A DNA stretch of 23,659 nucleotides. Origin: a virus. Each line of letters opens with the position of its first letter. The stretch's first letter is position 1. Positions 7,253 through 12,009 of this stretch are shown here, piece after piece. The stretch covers positions 1 through 23,659 of the IMG/VR virus record IMGVR_UViG_3300021963_000656; one strand, 5' to 3'. Position numbers and translations under genes: made by a program. Below the pieces are notes generated by a model. That model was not told the origin of the DNA, did no database searches, and was given only the letters and a program-made list of their open reading frames with translations.

Positions 7253-7623
7253 TTTGATCCTCCAATATCAAGTCGTTGTTTAATAAAATTTATTTGTTCT
7301 TGTGTCAGGATTTTCAGTGCTTGGGATGCTTTTTCATTACTATAACCATAGTAAGATTTAATACATTCTAAGTCTGTGACTTTATCCTTGCGGAGCCAGG
7401 GAGAAAATCTCTTCCGTTTCCTCAGACTATTTAGGTAAAATGAATATTGTAGATCTTTGTCAAGATGATGATTCATATTCATTTCGTTTGCATACATTAC
7501 ACAATCAATATGTCCGGACAGGCAACGATTGATAATATATGGGGGATATGATTTAATTCCCTCAGATAAATCTTCTTTTGTAGAATTAATTGAGTTCAAC
7601 CAGTCTTTAAGTTCGTATGTCAT
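7249..7623 (-). CDS. 62: gp62, clamp-loader small subunit
   Basis: gp62 joins four copies of gp44 to form the loader that opens and places the gp45 sliding clamp on primed DNA. The protein has 124 aa, shorter than T4 gp62 (187 aa), as is usual in cyanophages. It is all-helical by sequence, with recognisable elements DWLNSINSTKEDL near the N-terminus, YPPYIINRCLSGH, and a central block YSFYLNSLRKRKRFSPWLRK. It overlaps the 371-aa gene upstream and regA downstream by 4 nt each. The assignment rests on these family motifs plus the position directly before regA. Confidence 0.93.
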   Translation of the reverse strand: MTYELKDWLNSINSTKEDLSEGIKSYPPYIINRCLSGHIDCVMYANEMNMNHHLDKDLQYSFYLNSLRKRKRFSPWLRKDKVTDLECIKSYYGYSNEKASQALKILTQEQINFIKQRLDIGGSK

Positions 7624-8735
7624 CGTATAATTTGAATTTCCTCATCATCAGTCCAAAGTTCAACCTTATTTCTGAATCTATTTTCTTCTTTTAATTTTTC
7701 ATAACGCTTAGATGCCTTTTTCTTCCACCAAGCAATTATATTTTCCAGATAAAATTTATCCCAATTAGGACCACGAAGAAGTTTATCTTGTTCTCCAAGA
7801 ATTACTTCACGAACATTTGAGTACCCATACTCACAAATGTAGAATCTCTTTTTTTGAGTTAAGTTAAATGCTGCATTAATAACTTCATTAAAAATAAAAA
7901 GTTTATCTTGGTCTTTAAGAGAATTTTTAATGATTGAAATCATTTTTGTTTGTCTCTTCATCTTTTTAGAAGATGCTTTCTTATCAGTTAGGGGTTGATT
8001 ATTGTTCAGTACTGTAAAACGATCGTGAAGTTTATGAAATGCTTCGTCGTGAAGTAGAGGAAGAAACTTACTTTCTGTTAGTCCTTTGTAACGCATATAA
8101 GGTTTGAGTCCATCATATTGCGATGCATCTGTGGTAGAACCATAAAGTGAGGTGGTCTCAAAGAGTGCAATATCCTTCTCAAACACTTCATTCAGCGTCT
8201 CACGAGCAAAATGAGAACAACATAAAAGTGCCAAGAGTTTACCACCCAAGTAATTGTAACCGAATGGTTGAGATGGAACAATCACAAAACCCATAGCTGC
8301 ATGACGATTAAAAATAGAAAGATCAGGTGCTTTTCCTAACCATTCATTTCTAGGTTTTGAGTTAATCGTAGGAGATCCAAAACGAATAAATCCAAGAACT
8401 TTTTTTGTATTCTTTTCAAATATCATCCAACGAAGTTCTCTTCCAGGAATATTACTTTCGTTGTTATGAGATGATACTACTTGTAAAAGAGTATTGTAAT
8501 GTTCTTGCGGTAATGCTTTCTGAAAACGTTCACCTACAAACTTAATATCAAATTCCATATCCTCAGGATGAAGGTCTTCATTAAAAAACTCATCGTGAAG
8601 AGGAGCAAGAGTGTTTGTAGTTTTGATAACTTCTCTTTTTACAAAACGCAGATAATCTTCAATATTTCCCATTTGAGAAAAATATTTAATAAATTCATCC
8701 GCAGCCCATTGAGCGTCTTGTTCAGAAATAATCAT
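7620..8735 (-). CDS. Unrecognised 371-aa protein inside the clamp-loader operon; possible DUF4338-like core
   Basis: I do not recognise this protein with certainty. Residues about 100-230 contain an acyltransferase-like strand pattern: LRWMIFEKNTKKVLGFIRFG, then NEWLG, a hydrophobic GFVIVPSQPFGYNYLGGKLL helix-turn, an ALFETTSLYG segment and YMRYKGLT. This order (LG-strand, R-x-WLG, VP..., ETxxxYG, Y-x-GLT) recalls the DUF4338 family that includes the Druantia protein DruA, but the match is weak and from memory. The C-terminal third is Lys-rich and ends WTDDEEIQIIR. The start overlaps the 68-aa gene by 4 nt and the stop overlaps gp62 by 4 nt, so it is made with the clamp loader. A GNAT-like enzyme or a replication accessory factor are both possible. 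Confidence 0.85.
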   Translation of the reverse strand: MIISEQDAQWAADEFIKYFSQMGNIEDYLRFVKREVIKTTNTLAPLHDEFFNEDLHPEDMEFDIKFVGERFQKALPQEHYNTLLQVVSSHNNESNIPGRELRWMIFEKNTKKVLGFIRFGSPTINSKPRNEWLGKAPDLSIFNRHAAMGFVIVPSQPFGYNYLGGKLLALLCCSHFARETLNEVFEKDIALFETTSLYGSTTDASQYDGLKPYMRYKGLTESKFLPLLHDEAFHKLHDRFTVLNNNQPLTDKKASSKKMKRQTKMISIIKNSLKDQDKLFIFNEVINAAFNLTQKKRFYICEYGYSNVREVILGEQDKLLRGPNWDKFYLENIIAWWKKKASKRYEKLKEENRFRNKVELWTDDEEIQIIR

Positions 8736-8938
8736 TCAAACTGGCTCACTCTATTTGTTTTAGAACGTGGTACTTCATAAGGTACAACACAAGTCACAGA
8801 AATTGCAGTTGATTTTGTTGCCTTTGCCATTTCACGATAACCTAGTCCAACATAAATTTGCCCACCAACCACAGCAACTGCCATAGCACCCCAGAAAATA
8901 TAATACCACTTTGCTTTTACTTGATGTTCTTTATTCAT
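8732..8938 (-). CDS. Small single-pass membrane protein, 68 aa
   Basis: The sequence has a charged N-terminus (MNKEHQVKAK), one hydrophobic segment at about residues 11-32 (YYIFWGAMAVAVVGGQIYVG) and a polar C-terminal half with several Thr, Ser and Arg. There is no signal-peptidase motif, so a permanently anchored protein is likely. Both ends overlap neighbours by 4 nt (the gp44 stop and the 371-aa start), so it is translated in series with the clamp loader. Function is not recognised. Membrane tethering of the replisome would fit the context but is speculation. Confidence 0.85.
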   Translation of the reverse strand: MNKEHQVKAKWYYIFWGAMAVAVVGGQIYVGLGYREMAKATKSTAISVTCVVPYEVPRSKTNRVSQFE

Positions 8939-9882
8939 TTGAACTCACACTCCACCATAATTTCAGTAAGGGCGGCAAGAAGATTTATTTCTTGGTCAGC
9001 AACGAACGCACATTGGTATTGATACTTAGCAAGAATAAGAACGGCAGCAGGGATAGTTGCGGGTGAAAGACTATCATAAGCGGCGTCATAAACCCTGCGA
9101 AGTAGACTAGAAGCGTCGTTATCCAAGTTCCCGACCACCCACTTTCTGACTTCAGTAAAATTTTTATCTTTAAGATGCTTGATAAGATCATTGGTTTTTA
9201 CATCACTAAAAGTTGCAAGAATACCAGAGTTAATTTCTCCACCAGAGGAATAACGTTGACATTCATTTAGAACTCTGCGCCAGTCTGGGAAGTGTTTGTT
9301 GATAAGTTCTGCAATAACTTTGAGATCATATTTAATGTTTTCCGTATCCAGGATACTTTGCAGACGACTAAGGAAAGATACTGCCAGTTGGGCTTTTTCT
9401 TTTCCTTTGATAGAAAAATCAATAACGGCACATCGAGAATGAAGTGGTTCGATGATTTTGTTTTTGTAGTTGCAAGTGAAGATAAATCGGCAGTTGTTAG
9501 CAAATTCCTCAATAGACGCCCGTAGGAGGAGTTGTACGTCTGAGGTTGTGTTATCTGCCTCATCAATAATGATGACTTTGTGTTTAGCAGTTGACGAAAG
9601 CGATACGGTCGAAGCAAAGTTTTTCGCATTGTTTCGGACAGTATCGAGGAATCTACCTTCGTCGGATCCATTGATGACATAAACATCTACTCCAAGTTCA
9701 TTGCAGAGTGCCTTTGCTACAGTAGTCTTGCCACATCCAGCAGGACCAGCAAGAAGAAGATTAGGAACCTCTCCTTTATCTAAGAAGTCTTTAAAGGTTT
9801 TTTTAGTTGCATCTGGAAGGATGCAATCTTCAATAGTTTTGGGACGGTATTTTTCGACCCAGAGAAATTCATCACGACTCAT
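8935..9882 (-). CDS. 44: gp44, clamp-loader ATPase large subunit
   Basis: gp44 is a AAA+ ATPase that, with gp62, loads the gp45 clamp. Length is 315 aa, like T4 gp44 (319). The N-terminal WVEKYRPKTI box is typical of clamp loaders. Walker A GPAGCGKT is at residues 46-53, Walker B DEAD at 106-109 and the arginine-finger motif SRC at 148-150. The C-terminal third is the helical collar. ATG at 9882 follows the 170-aa gene stop by only 3 nt. The next gene starts 4 nt before its end. Identity is certain. Confidence 0.97.
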   Translation of the reverse strand: MSRDEFLWVEKYRPKTIEDCILPDATKKTFKDFLDKGEVPNLLLAGPAGCGKTTVAKALCNELGVDVYVINGSDEGRFLDTVRNNAKNFASTVSLSSTAKHKVIIIDEADNTTSDVQLLLRASIEEFANNCRFIFTCNYKNKIIEPLHSRCAVIDFSIKGKEKAQLAVSFLSRLQSILDTENIKYDLKVIAELINKHFPDWRRVLNECQRYSSGGEINSGILATFSDVKTNDLIKHLKDKNFTEVRKWVVGNLDNDASSLLRRVYDAAYDSLSPATIPAAVLILAKYQYQCAFVADQEINLLAALTEIMVECEFK

Positions 9883-9885
9883 AAT

Positions 9886-10398
9886 TTATACCCAATCAGG
9901 TTTACGTTCTGGCATACGAAGATAGTTATTTGCTACCCAAGGTTTGGATGCAATGTACATCTTATAAGCAGTAAAAGTGTCAATATTCGTGTCAAATTTA
10001 TACTCATCTGGCATAGCACGAGCGAATGGAGTTACCTCTGTTAGTTTACCTTTTGGAAAAAGATAGTATGCTTCTATCAAAGTATTTTGGCACGAATGCG
10101 TTTTATTATAACGCAAAGTATATTCGTCGCACAAGTTCAGTCCCCATTTAATCAACCAATAAGCATTGTCTATTGATTTTGCTGCCCACTGAGTACAGGG
10201 GTGATTACGAAAAGCACCCTTTTCAGTTTTGTATGGAGCGCCATCTGCCTTAGGGAGAGTTCCGTACCCGTGTCCCCACTTCTCTGATGCCACAATAGAG
10301 AGCATTTGGCACGCCTCTAAAGGCATTTTACATATGTGCTTATCCGGAAGTACGATTGCACTTTCTGCAGGCCACGGGGATGTAACAAATATATTCAA
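9886..10398 (-). CDS. Conserved phage protein, 170 aa, TTG start; family sometimes labelled pyrimidine-dimer glycosylase-like
   Basis: The product starts MNIFVTSPWPAESAIVLPDK and carries the family blocks KMPLEACQMLS, NHPCTQWAAKS, LCDEYTLRYNKTHSC and TPFARAMPDEYK. Proteins of this type are widespread in T4-like and other phages. Some are annotated as related to pyrimidine-dimer DNA glycosylase, but I see no direct resemblance to T4 DenV and do not assert that activity. The start must be the TTG at 10398: MNIFV is the usual beginning of the family, no ATG is available nearby, and AGGA sits 7 nt upstream inside the last codons of the endonuclease gene. It lies between that endonuclease and gp44. 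Confidence 0.85.
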   Translation of the reverse strand: MNIFVTSPWPAESAIVLPDKHICKMPLEACQMLSIVASEKWGHGYGTLPKADGAPYKTEKGAFRNHPCTQWAAKSIDNAYWLIKWGLNLCDEYTLRYNKTHSCQNTLIEAYYLFPKGKLTEVTPFARAMPDEYKFDTNIDTFTAYKMYIASKPWVANNYLRMPERKPDWV

Positions 10399-10400
10399 AG

Positions 10401-10982
10401 TTAGTTCCTCAAAGTTTTATAATAATTTAAAAGTAGTTCTAACTCTTCAACTGTAGCATCTCTTTTTAAGATGTTTGCTCTCCTACTGACAACTGTAACA
10501 TTTCCTTTTATATAACCTTTGGAACTGTCAATTCTATCAACACTAGGAGCAGACATCCAAGTTTGCTTATCCTCTCTTTTTAATTCAAATCCAAATACGG
10601 GACATTTTTCTGGAATTATAATATCTTCCAATTCAATAGAAAACTCTCTTCCAGTTCTTTTGCATCTCGATTTGATGTTTTTGTAGAGAAGTTTAGCAGC
10701 ATCAACTTTCCAATCTCTGTTTAATTTTTCAGTTTGTCTTATCTTTGTAGAACATTTTTTACAAATGTCTTTTGTTCCAGAATTAACATTCCATTTTTCA
10801 ATTAAACTAAACTTATTAAGATTTAGTGATTGATTACACTCTTCACAAACTTTGTATCTGTTTGGATTTTCTTCTCTATTCTTCATACCAAATTCTCTTG
10901 CATTATATACATTCATACATTTGCAAGAGCAAAACTTTTTTTGTCTTTTACCAAGAATAGAATTACATTCCAAACAATACAT
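10401..10982 (-). CDS. Putative HNH-like homing endonuclease with Cys-rich zinc-binding N-terminus
   Basis: The 193-aa protein has an N-terminal half with repeated Cys pairs (C3/C6, C18/C20/C22, C46/C49, C74/C77) suggesting zinc knuckles that bind DNA. The C-terminal half has IPEKCPVFG (residues 123-131), SVDRIDSSKGY (147-157), KGNVTVVS (159-166), RAN with N170, then LKRDATVEELELL. This series is typical of free-standing phage HNH-type endonucleases. The catalytic His is replaced or displaced in the DRID motif, as in many phage members. It sits between gp45 and gp44, which are adjacent in T4, so it is probably a mobile insertion. The last codons supply the ribosome binding site for the next gene. 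The subfamily and the target are not determined. Confidence 0.82.
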   Translation of the reverse strand: MYCLECNSILGKRQKKFCSCKCMNVYNAREFGMKNREENPNRYKVCEECNQSLNLNKFSLIEKWNVNSGTKDICKKCSTKIRQTEKLNRDWKVDAAKLLYKNIKSRCKRTGREFSIELEDIIIPEKCPVFGFELKREDKQTWMSAPSVDRIDSSKGYIKGNVTVVSRRANILKRDATVEELELLLNYYKTLRN

Positions 10983-11036
10983 TTGCTTGTTTTCTAACTA
11001 CATAACTATTTATAAAAAAGAATACTTACAGATGTA

Positions 11037-11339
11037 TTAATACATAAAATCTGTTACTTTTACTCTTTTAACCAATCCATATTTTTCAATAAACCAATCA
11101 ATAATTATTTGGAAATAACTTTTATTTACTGAAGGAATATTTTTAATATGAAGTGGTTTTTCGGTTGATAATCCCATTAAAGAAATACAGTTATCAATAT
11201 CATAACAATAAATTTTTTGCCTCCCATAAAATTCAATATTTAAGTAATCCCGTATAAACTTTACAGGAATTTTATTATCAATTTGTTGAGGAACAAAAGA
11301 AGAATCCCAAGATAAGCAACAAGATTTAAAATAATTCAT
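11037..11339 (-). CDS. Unrecognised 100-aa protein next to the endonuclease
   Basis: The product begins MNYFKSCCLSWDSSFVPQQI and ends VKRVKVTDFMY. I chose ATG at 11339, five bases after the gp45 stop at 11344; the reading frame is open further upstream but that part overlaps gp45 and looks non-coding. The protein is rich in Ile, Tyr, Lys and Cys and strongly AT-biased in its DNA, like the adjacent endonuclease gene. No domain is recognised. A 54-nt gap with stops in the region separates it from the endonuclease start. It probably arrived together with the endonuclease, or is a poorly conserved accessory gene; this is inference from position and composition. Confidence 0.65.
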   Translation of the reverse strand: MNYFKSCCLSWDSSFVPQQIDNKIPVKFIRDYLNIEFYGRQKIYCYDIDNCISLMGLSTEKPLHIKNIPSVNKSYFQIIIDWFIEKYGLVKRVKVTDFMY

Positions 11340-11343
11340 TCTA

Positions 11344-12009
11344 TCAACCAAAAGTAGAATCAGGTTCCAGAGCAATATAATACACCAGATCGTGATTTTT
11401 GGAAGTAAATCGTGACAAAAGTTTTGAAGAAACAACTACTTCATAAGTTCCAGGAAGAACTTTAATATTTTCTACTTTAAAGTTGAAAACGAAGTTAGTA
11501 TCAGTTTCACCAACAACAACAGCAAAGTCATTGGAGGTTTCATTCTTCTTATCACGAACCACCAGTTTTACTACACCCGCTTCACCAACAGCAGAAATAT
11601 CAGGAAGTTGATAAACAGCAGCTGCTTTCAGAAGTTTATCAAGTTGTTCAGTGCTCACCTCAAAACACACATCTTCACTGGGAAGATTGATTGCTTTATC
11701 AGGAGGAGTGATGATAACAGCGGGATCTGCAAAGAAATACTTAGAACGAGACTTACCTTCTTTGATGACAACATATCCATCATTCTGAAAATCAAGTTCA
11801 GGACTTTGATACAAACCAAGACCATTAAGGAACTGGTTTAGATCATAGATACCAAAATCTTTGGGGAGATCTTCGGTTACAGTTGCTTCTGCAAGGATAT
11901 TCTTCATTACAGAGATAGTGCGAAGTTTGCTACCTTGCTTGAAGAGAATAGATTGGTTAATAGAAGAAAAGTTCTTCAGTACAGAGAGAGTTTTATCAGA
12001 GAGTTTCAT
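11344..12009 (-). CDS. 45: gp45, sliding clamp (processivity factor)
   Basis: gp45 is the trimeric ring that holds gp43 on DNA; in T4 it also activates late transcription by contacting gp55/gp33. The 221-aa protein aligns with T4 gp45: MKLSDKTLSVLKNFSSINQS at the start, YDLNQFLNGLGL, ADPAVIITPPDKAI, a TNFVFNF strand and ALEPDSTFG at the end. I chose ATG at 12009; a TTG two codons upstream (12015) overlaps the DUF3310 stop and is less likely, because T4 gp45 begins with the same MKLS. The gene begins 2 nt after DUF3310 ends. Confidence 0.97.
   Translation of the reverse strand: MKLSDKTLSVLKNFSSINQSILFKQGSKLRTISVMKNILAEATVTEDLPKDFGIYDLNQFLNGLGLYQSPELDFQNDGYVVIKEGKSRSKYFFADPAVIITPPDKAINLPSEDVCFEVSTEQLDKLLKAAAVYQLPDISAVGEAGVVKLVVRDKKNETSNDFAVVVGETDTNFVFNFKVENIKVLPGTYEVVVSSKLLSRFTSKNHDLVYYIALEPDSTFG

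Follow-up and report, generated by a model that had tools for sequence, protein, structure and literature searches.

Between the sliding clamp gene (gp45) and the clamp loader gene (gp44) of a T4-like cyanophage replication operon lie a 100-aa orphan open reading frame, an HNH endonuclease gene and a 170-aa gene, in that order and all on the minus strand of a 23,659-base virus record (the whole stretch of DNA analysed, here called the window). The last of the three starts with TTG, just 2 nt beyond the stop codon of the HNH gene, and the question is how an endonuclease gene came to stand there and whether it brought this start with it. The gene positions given in a previous examination of the letters alone (the sequence-only reading) were confirmed, and the identities of gp45 and gp44 were confirmed by Pfam and PHROG (Table 1). 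The orphan and the HNH gene are indeed more AT-rich than their neighbours, with GC contents of 0.234 and 0.292 versus 0.37–0.41 (gp45 0.368, 170-aa gene 0.409, gp44 0.403; window 0.360). Further along, inside the replication operon, a 371-aa gene at 7620–8735 matched the DruA family (PF14236, E 5.1e-10), and relatives were found downstream of gp44 in many of the fetched loci.

Table 1. Features of the gp45–gp44 interval and its flanks, in positions of the window
Feature	Position	Strand	Basis or remark
gp45 sliding clamp	11344..12009	-	upstream neighbour; PF09116 E 1.3e-10, phrog_223 E 2.7e-87
100-aa orphan ORF	11037..11339	-	set apart from the mobile unit
Leader of the putative mobile unit, with predicted hairpin ACATYTG...CARATGT pairing the HNH start codon	10979..11035	-	24-row alignment
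TATAAATA, match to the T4 late promoter motif within the hairpin	11007..11014	-	23/24 leaders
Predicted HNH (beta-beta-alpha-Me) endonuclease gene, 193 aa, core of the putative mobile unit	10401..10982	-	phrog_3322 E 2.9e-33
GAGGA ribosome-binding sequence for pyr, in the final HNH codons	10406..10410	-	sequence; junction motif in 49 viral-contig stretches
pyr, Pyr_excise family, 170 aa, probable interrupted resident gene with a TTG start that is most likely a replacement	9886..10398	-	PF03013 E 2.3e-15
pyr codons 16–26, probable homing-site region, here in a changed, putatively immune form	10321..10353	-	allele comparison
gp44 clamp loader	8935..9882	-	downstream neighbour; phrog_168 E 1e-133

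The 170-aa gene, called pyr here, is by its profile matches a repair gene of the Pyr_excise family encoding a putative glycosylase: it scored 57.1 bits against PF03013, passing the curated Pfam cut-off of 23, and matched phrog_624 (E 1.5e-72), while a PDB sequence search gave no match up to E 10. Relatives were detected by tblastn in 528 phage records, mostly of cyanophages, and the position between gp45 and gp44 is its usual residence in many of these, the ACG-2014f isolates being an example. Among the 106 pyr-bearing loci with a readable start retrieved by the gp45 and gp44 scans, 100 had no HNH gene and an ATG start. The nearest gp45 relatives of the window (L178 and L179, 98% amino acid identity) carry no insert, and their pyr ATG overlaps the gp45 stop codon. 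In phage B23 (L003) and in DSL-LC02 (L001) pyr was found away from the gp45–gp44 interval, so pyr too appears to move.

The HNH protein matched PHROG endonuclease families but no HNH Pfam model. An alignment of 29 sequences contained 11 invariant columns, and the structure model made from them (mean pLDDT 79.7) had PacI (3ldy) as its best Foldseek match, a modest one (E 6.2e-4, TM-score 0.34/0.45, 17% identity); when the HNH profile was run against PDB sequences up to E 1, PacI was not matched and the one hit was at chance level. The predicted identity as a beta-beta-alpha-Me endonuclease rests on the PHROG families together with this fold match. The HNH proteins look mosaic when L028 and L029–L037 are compared with the window, with two N-terminal types combined with several C-terminal types; L028, for example, joins the N-type of L032–L037 to the C-type found in the group of the window, a pattern that looks like an exchange of domains.

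A scan of viral contigs recovered 42 HNH loci. The HNH gene lies directly 5' of pyr in each of the 35 informative loci (one HNH copy being partial), made up of the 33 of L006–L039 with a visible next gene, DSL-LC02 and the ACG-2014f isolate Syn7803C25; L038 ends inside the HNH gene and L039 holds only part of it. In the eight more distant loci (L040–L047) pyr was not found. In DSL-LC02 the HNH and pyr pair is located among tail-fibre genes and neither gene is in the gp45–gp44 interval. Because the pair sits elsewhere in this phage, the target appears to be the repair gene rather than the gp45–gp44 junction, a correction to the sequence-only reading, which had the endonuclease inserted between the two replication genes.

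In the window, GAGGA falls in the final HNH codons (TTG AGG AAC TAA), 7 nt before the TTG, bearing out the earlier proposal that pyr borrows its ribosome site from the endonuclease gene. The same holds across the window's junction type (group A): pyr starts with TTG in 24 of 24 loci, which include L039 with its partial HNH gene and several near-identical contigs, and the ribosome site lies in a TTGAGGAAYTAAYY-like HNH tail. A second group of 11 HNH-bearing loci keeps the ATG of pyr; the HNH gene reads 20–80 nt into pyr in 10 of them, and that of L048 ends 51 nt before it. In 86 loci lacking HNH the pyr start was ATG in 79, TTG in five, GTG in one and ATC in one. Since TTG is constant in the junction type, ATG prevails in the loci lacking HNH, and the uninserted L178 and L179 also start with ATG, the start and ribosome site now used most likely arrived with the HNH unit; the suspicion of the sequence-only reading that the start of the downstream gene had been replaced is thus upheld. 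Some pyr genes in loci lacking HNH align from ATC (L125, behind GAGGAAC, and three further loci), with no usual start codon there. The idea that the group A HNH tail is a duplicated pyr start was dropped, since similar terminal residues are found in relatives whose neighbours differ.

The junction motif was matched by 49 stretches, of which 20 have a full HNH gene, 12 have HNH relics of 21–227 nt and the other 17 have at most 10 nt of it. In two of the relics (L147 and L173) the start of the leader is joined to the end of the HNH gene. The TTG arrangement without the endonuclease had been named beforehand as the observation that would count against a replaced start, and in these 17 stretches, with no detectable HNH, it does occur in part. 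They raise the alternative that the TTG and the GAGGAACTAAC ribosome site form an older pyr allele, upstream of which the HNH gene was inserted later, replacing no start and merely overlapping the site with its tail. Phage B23, whose pyr starts with TTG behind GAGGAATAAAT and has no HNH gene, can be cited for the same view. However, relatives in different contexts also have the arginine of the HNH tail (KRYRG in L048, ESIR in L040), so the AGG codon is plausibly native to the HNH gene, the graded series of relics retains the TTG block, and the uninserted relatives nearest to the window in gp45 start with ATG. In addition, six of 15 distinct TTG alleles lacking HNH have the DRH[IV]T motif of HNH-bearing alleles (see below), a form present in two of 81 ordinary ATG alleles lacking HNH; six others have the common motif. 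We consider an older TTG allele unlikely, and because the arginine codon of the ribosome site is common to HNH relatives elsewhere and six of the 15 alleles carry DRH[IV]T, most of the 17 are probably scars of a lost HNH unit.

The edges of the unit were sought by comparing loci, as the sequence-only reading had proposed, and the comparison revealed a sharp edge at the leader and identity falling within pyr. Between the window and 14 other group A loci, identity before the leader was 0.38–0.56 in 13 (shuffle mean 0.52), the exception being L006 (0.68–0.84), which shares the orphan; it was 0.83–0.91 in the leader, 0.77–0.99 (about 0.9) in the HNH bins, 0.83–1.00 at the junction, and in pyr it was for the most part lower. 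The mobile unit thus consists of the leader (~53–54 nt), the HNH gene and the new ribosome site and TTG start for pyr. No Pfam or PHROG match was found for the orphan, nor any tblastn match in phages, and among the loci scanned with it a homologue (66% identity) was found only in L006/L250 and in L147, there beside an HNH relic. As it recurs beside that relic and is absent from most HNH-bearing loci, the orphan is, on this distribution, separate from the unit. Of the insertion as first described, the HNH unit therefore stands; the 170-aa gene, a resident cyanophage gene, and the orphan are not part of it.

The history of the HNH gene also differs from that of its surroundings. Between the window and L007 or L012, pS for HNH was 0.17–0.20 (pN 0.02), and for cobS, gp45, pyr and gp44 it was 0.57–0.74. 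The low HNH value is not a ceiling effect, since the distant HNH group reaches 0.42–0.57, and L048 0.84. With the gp45 data, the AU test rejected a clade of the window and L007 (p 1.0e-9) and a group A clade (p 1.5e-43). In a pyr tree built by a quick method and with many weak branches, the state HNH_TTG needs at least five changes on the starred branches. The identity bins, the pS contrast and the AU tests indicate that the HNH gene moves independently of the genes around it.

Cultured isolates provide a with-and-without comparison. Among 45 ACG-2014f records (some of them RefSeq duplicates), 44 have an unbroken gp45–pyr junction and one (Syn7803C25, GenBank accession number KJ019152) has the HNH gene. 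The flanking genes of Syn7803C25 are 84–100% identical per 100 nt to those of three sisters, mostly more than 94%, and its pyr differs from that of the sister L049 at 36 positions in nt 1–100 and at none in nt 101–531. This pattern is the co-conversion expected of homing, if read at face value, but sisters lacking HNH vary there too. As two of these, L049 and L050, differ at 31 sites in the same segment (pyr nt 6–90), recombination is, judged from these alleles, concentrated in this short 5' stretch of pyr, a hot spot also in genomes with no HNH gene left. Across L049–L051, all lacking HNH, the classes differ almost only in the first ~90–150 nt of pyr (nt 6–153) and are near-identical in the rest.

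To locate the homing site, 24 distinct pyr alleles with HNH were compared with 81 intact alleles lacking it, fetched by gp45 or gp44; the latter were ATG-start only and hence of no use for testing the start codon. A first set lacking HNH had been picked by similarity to the window's pyr and was biased for the motif test; it gave the same peak, and the gp45/gp44-fetched set gave the stronger motif result. After correction for distal identity, the HNH-bearing alleles showed an identity deficit of −0.167 at nt 46–90 (P 5.9e-12), compared with about −0.04 at nt 1–45 and 91–135 and −0.047 (P 0.055) at nt 136–180; beyond nt 180 the values were within 0.033 of zero, with some weak P values. The 24 best-associated position/base entries all fell within nt 1–79 of the 528 columns. 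The motif xLPDKH[IV]VKMP (codons 16–26) was present in 79 of 81 alleles lacking HNH versus two of 24 with it (L026 and L031), and changed in 2/81 versus 22/24, the changes seen being KH to RH, KL or KY and V to T or C. In a larger set, it was changed in 14 of 142 alleles lacking HNH. A tree of the distal part of pyr (166 rows, 24 with HNH) yielded 14 independent pairs differing in HNH, and the motif went with HNH in 9.6 of the 14 on average and opposite to it in 0.0 (median p 0.002), the opposite being seen as a single case in one of 200 pairings. Because the peak of the deficit and the motif change both track HNH, and a stump of old pyr in L025 ends at the same place, the homing site is probably in pyr codons 16–26, and the altered codons suggest an immune form of that site.

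The stump in L025 lies between gp45 and the leader and consists of 22 codons of old pyr (MNIFVVNSCPVLAAVELPDKHI); a complete TTG pyr of another allele follows the HNH gene. Shorter pyr stumps were detected in L023, L024, L026 and L027 (p 0.002–0.008). In the test of left flanks against an uninserted consensus, with the window and L006 left out, four of 22 were below 0.05 and 18 were non-significant, including L025, whose stump was found by translation. Left flanks compared with each locus's own pyr were mostly negative (2/24 below 0.05). The left-junction pattern fits one-sided repair at microhomology, which is reported for T4 introns (PMC2988022).

Ordinary illegitimate recombination in a hypervariable gp45–gp44 interval, with no endonuclease activity, would account for the varied left junctions and for the other unrelated inserts that the interval holds (the orphan and other ORFs). 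It sits badly with the reuse of one precise edge in many backgrounds, with a conversion tract on one side only and with a change of the target motif that accompanies HNH in independent pairs, and we regard it as very unlikely. Even less probable is that HNH and pyr are functional partners, for instance as a co-regulated nuclease–glycosylase module under joint selection: the constant adjacency in the 35 visible loci and the relocated pair in DSL-LC02 favour it, but 100 of the 106 pyr-bearing loci do without HNH and start with ATG, the HNH gene decays while pyr stays intact, and the HNH and gp45 histories conflict.

The leader is predicted to form a hairpin. In the leaders of 24 HNH-bearing loci ACATYTG can pair with CARATGT, a sequence that contains the start codon of HNH, and 95.2% of the cells of this helix pair; for a 13-pair structure 89.7% of cells pair, with a covariation of 0.202 versus at most 0.128 for slid versions, a value reached by none of 500 shuffles. 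The measure counting pairs with a change on both sides was unexceptional (86/500 shuffles). In the window itself the hairpin is weak (−9.4 kcal/mol, z −0.99) and no more stable than shuffles, and seven single folds ranged from z −5.2 (L028) to about −1.0 (the window and DSL-LC02). TATAAATA is present in 23 of the 24 leaders; it occurs once in the window versus 1.7 expected by chance. A late promoter may work at this site, and the same hairpin and late promoter layout is described for I-TevI, SegB and MobE (PMC2988022). In control of this T4 type the late promoter stands where RNA made late is missing the 5' arm of the hairpin, which otherwise hides the start site. A resemblance of ACATCTG in the leader to pyr ATGAACATCT could also mean that the leader derives from a pyr start that has since diverged. 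This was not relied on, because ACATYTG is required for pairing with the HNH start codon and the likeness may be chance.

We therefore return to homing, and give a probability of roughly 0.82 to the reading that the HNH gene is a free-standing homing endonuclease gene that invades the 5' end of the resident pyr gene by intronless homing. Mobility, boundaries, start replacement, conversion tract, stumps, relics and motif change were each read from sequence comparison; cleavage, cut position, immunity and late expression are steps that we infer. The enzyme would probably cut an unoccupied pyr in a co-infecting phage near codons 16–26, and repair from the occupied genome would copy in the hairpin leader with its late promoter, the HNH gene and the first part of pyr. 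The right end would recombine inside pyr, where the isolates show a conversion tract of about 100 nt; the left end would be joined through a short homology or none, and in some cases a stump of the old pyr would stay behind. In the window's group the unit would bring its own start, the GAGGA in the HNH tail and the TTG, in place of the ATG that overlapped the gp45 stop codon. The occupied allele would be immune because codons 16–26 are altered, and the leader would keep HNH silent on early read-through RNA and permit late expression.

Patchy presence, independent history, co-conversion and a target-site difference, the features of free-standing homing genes that were tested, were all found as sequence patterns; the pyr stumps, the HNH relics and the hairpin with its late-promoter motif are also in keeping with homing of the T4 type, and by analogy the element may work like T4 intronless homing. 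MobE of Aeromonas phage Aeh1 and T4 is likewise a free-standing HNH gene embedded in a T4-type phage operon, and in Aeh1 it has a late promoter and an RNA hairpin hiding the translation start (PMC2988022). It differs, in a comparison by description only, in that MobE has nrd targets and the present element a Pyr_excise gene, and in the latter the predicted stem includes the start codon, and the ribosome site of the following gene is provided by the HNH tail. T4 SegF, SegG and SegB are also free-standing, have their target next to them and bring about marker exclusion, and some seg genes hold the promoters of the next gene, SegB having a hairpin with a late promoter (PMC2988022); unlike the HNH protein, they belong to the GIY-YIG enzymes, SegF as a hybrid, and have other targets. 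F-CphI of cyanophage S-PM2 is a free-standing homing endonuclease of a T4-like cyanophage, with an Endo VII motif, a psbA target and intron-based immunity (PMC6083498), whereas here the best fold match is PacI, itself a modest one by the scores given above, and immunity would come from codon changes. In a search of the homing-endonuclease literature (cyanophage; clamp, clamp loader, pyrimidine dimer) the element was not named in the titles or abstract openings among the matches listed.

For the repair gene, we put forward tentatively, and as somewhat less than an even chance, that the endonuclease has as its target the best-conserved motif close to the start of this DNA-repair enzyme family, that each invasion or escape alters amino acids there, and that a selfish nuclease may thus be a main diversifying force of the repair-enzyme core, with scars (the TTG and the changed motif) outliving it. 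The homing reading accounts for an unusual TTG start and ribosome site, which would otherwise pass as ordinary in annotation. Within one natural data set, including a cultured with/without pair (ACG-2014f Syn7803C25 and its sisters), the life cycle of a homing gene would be visible from uninserted and inserted loci through one-sided junctions and apparently immune alleles to relics and scars.
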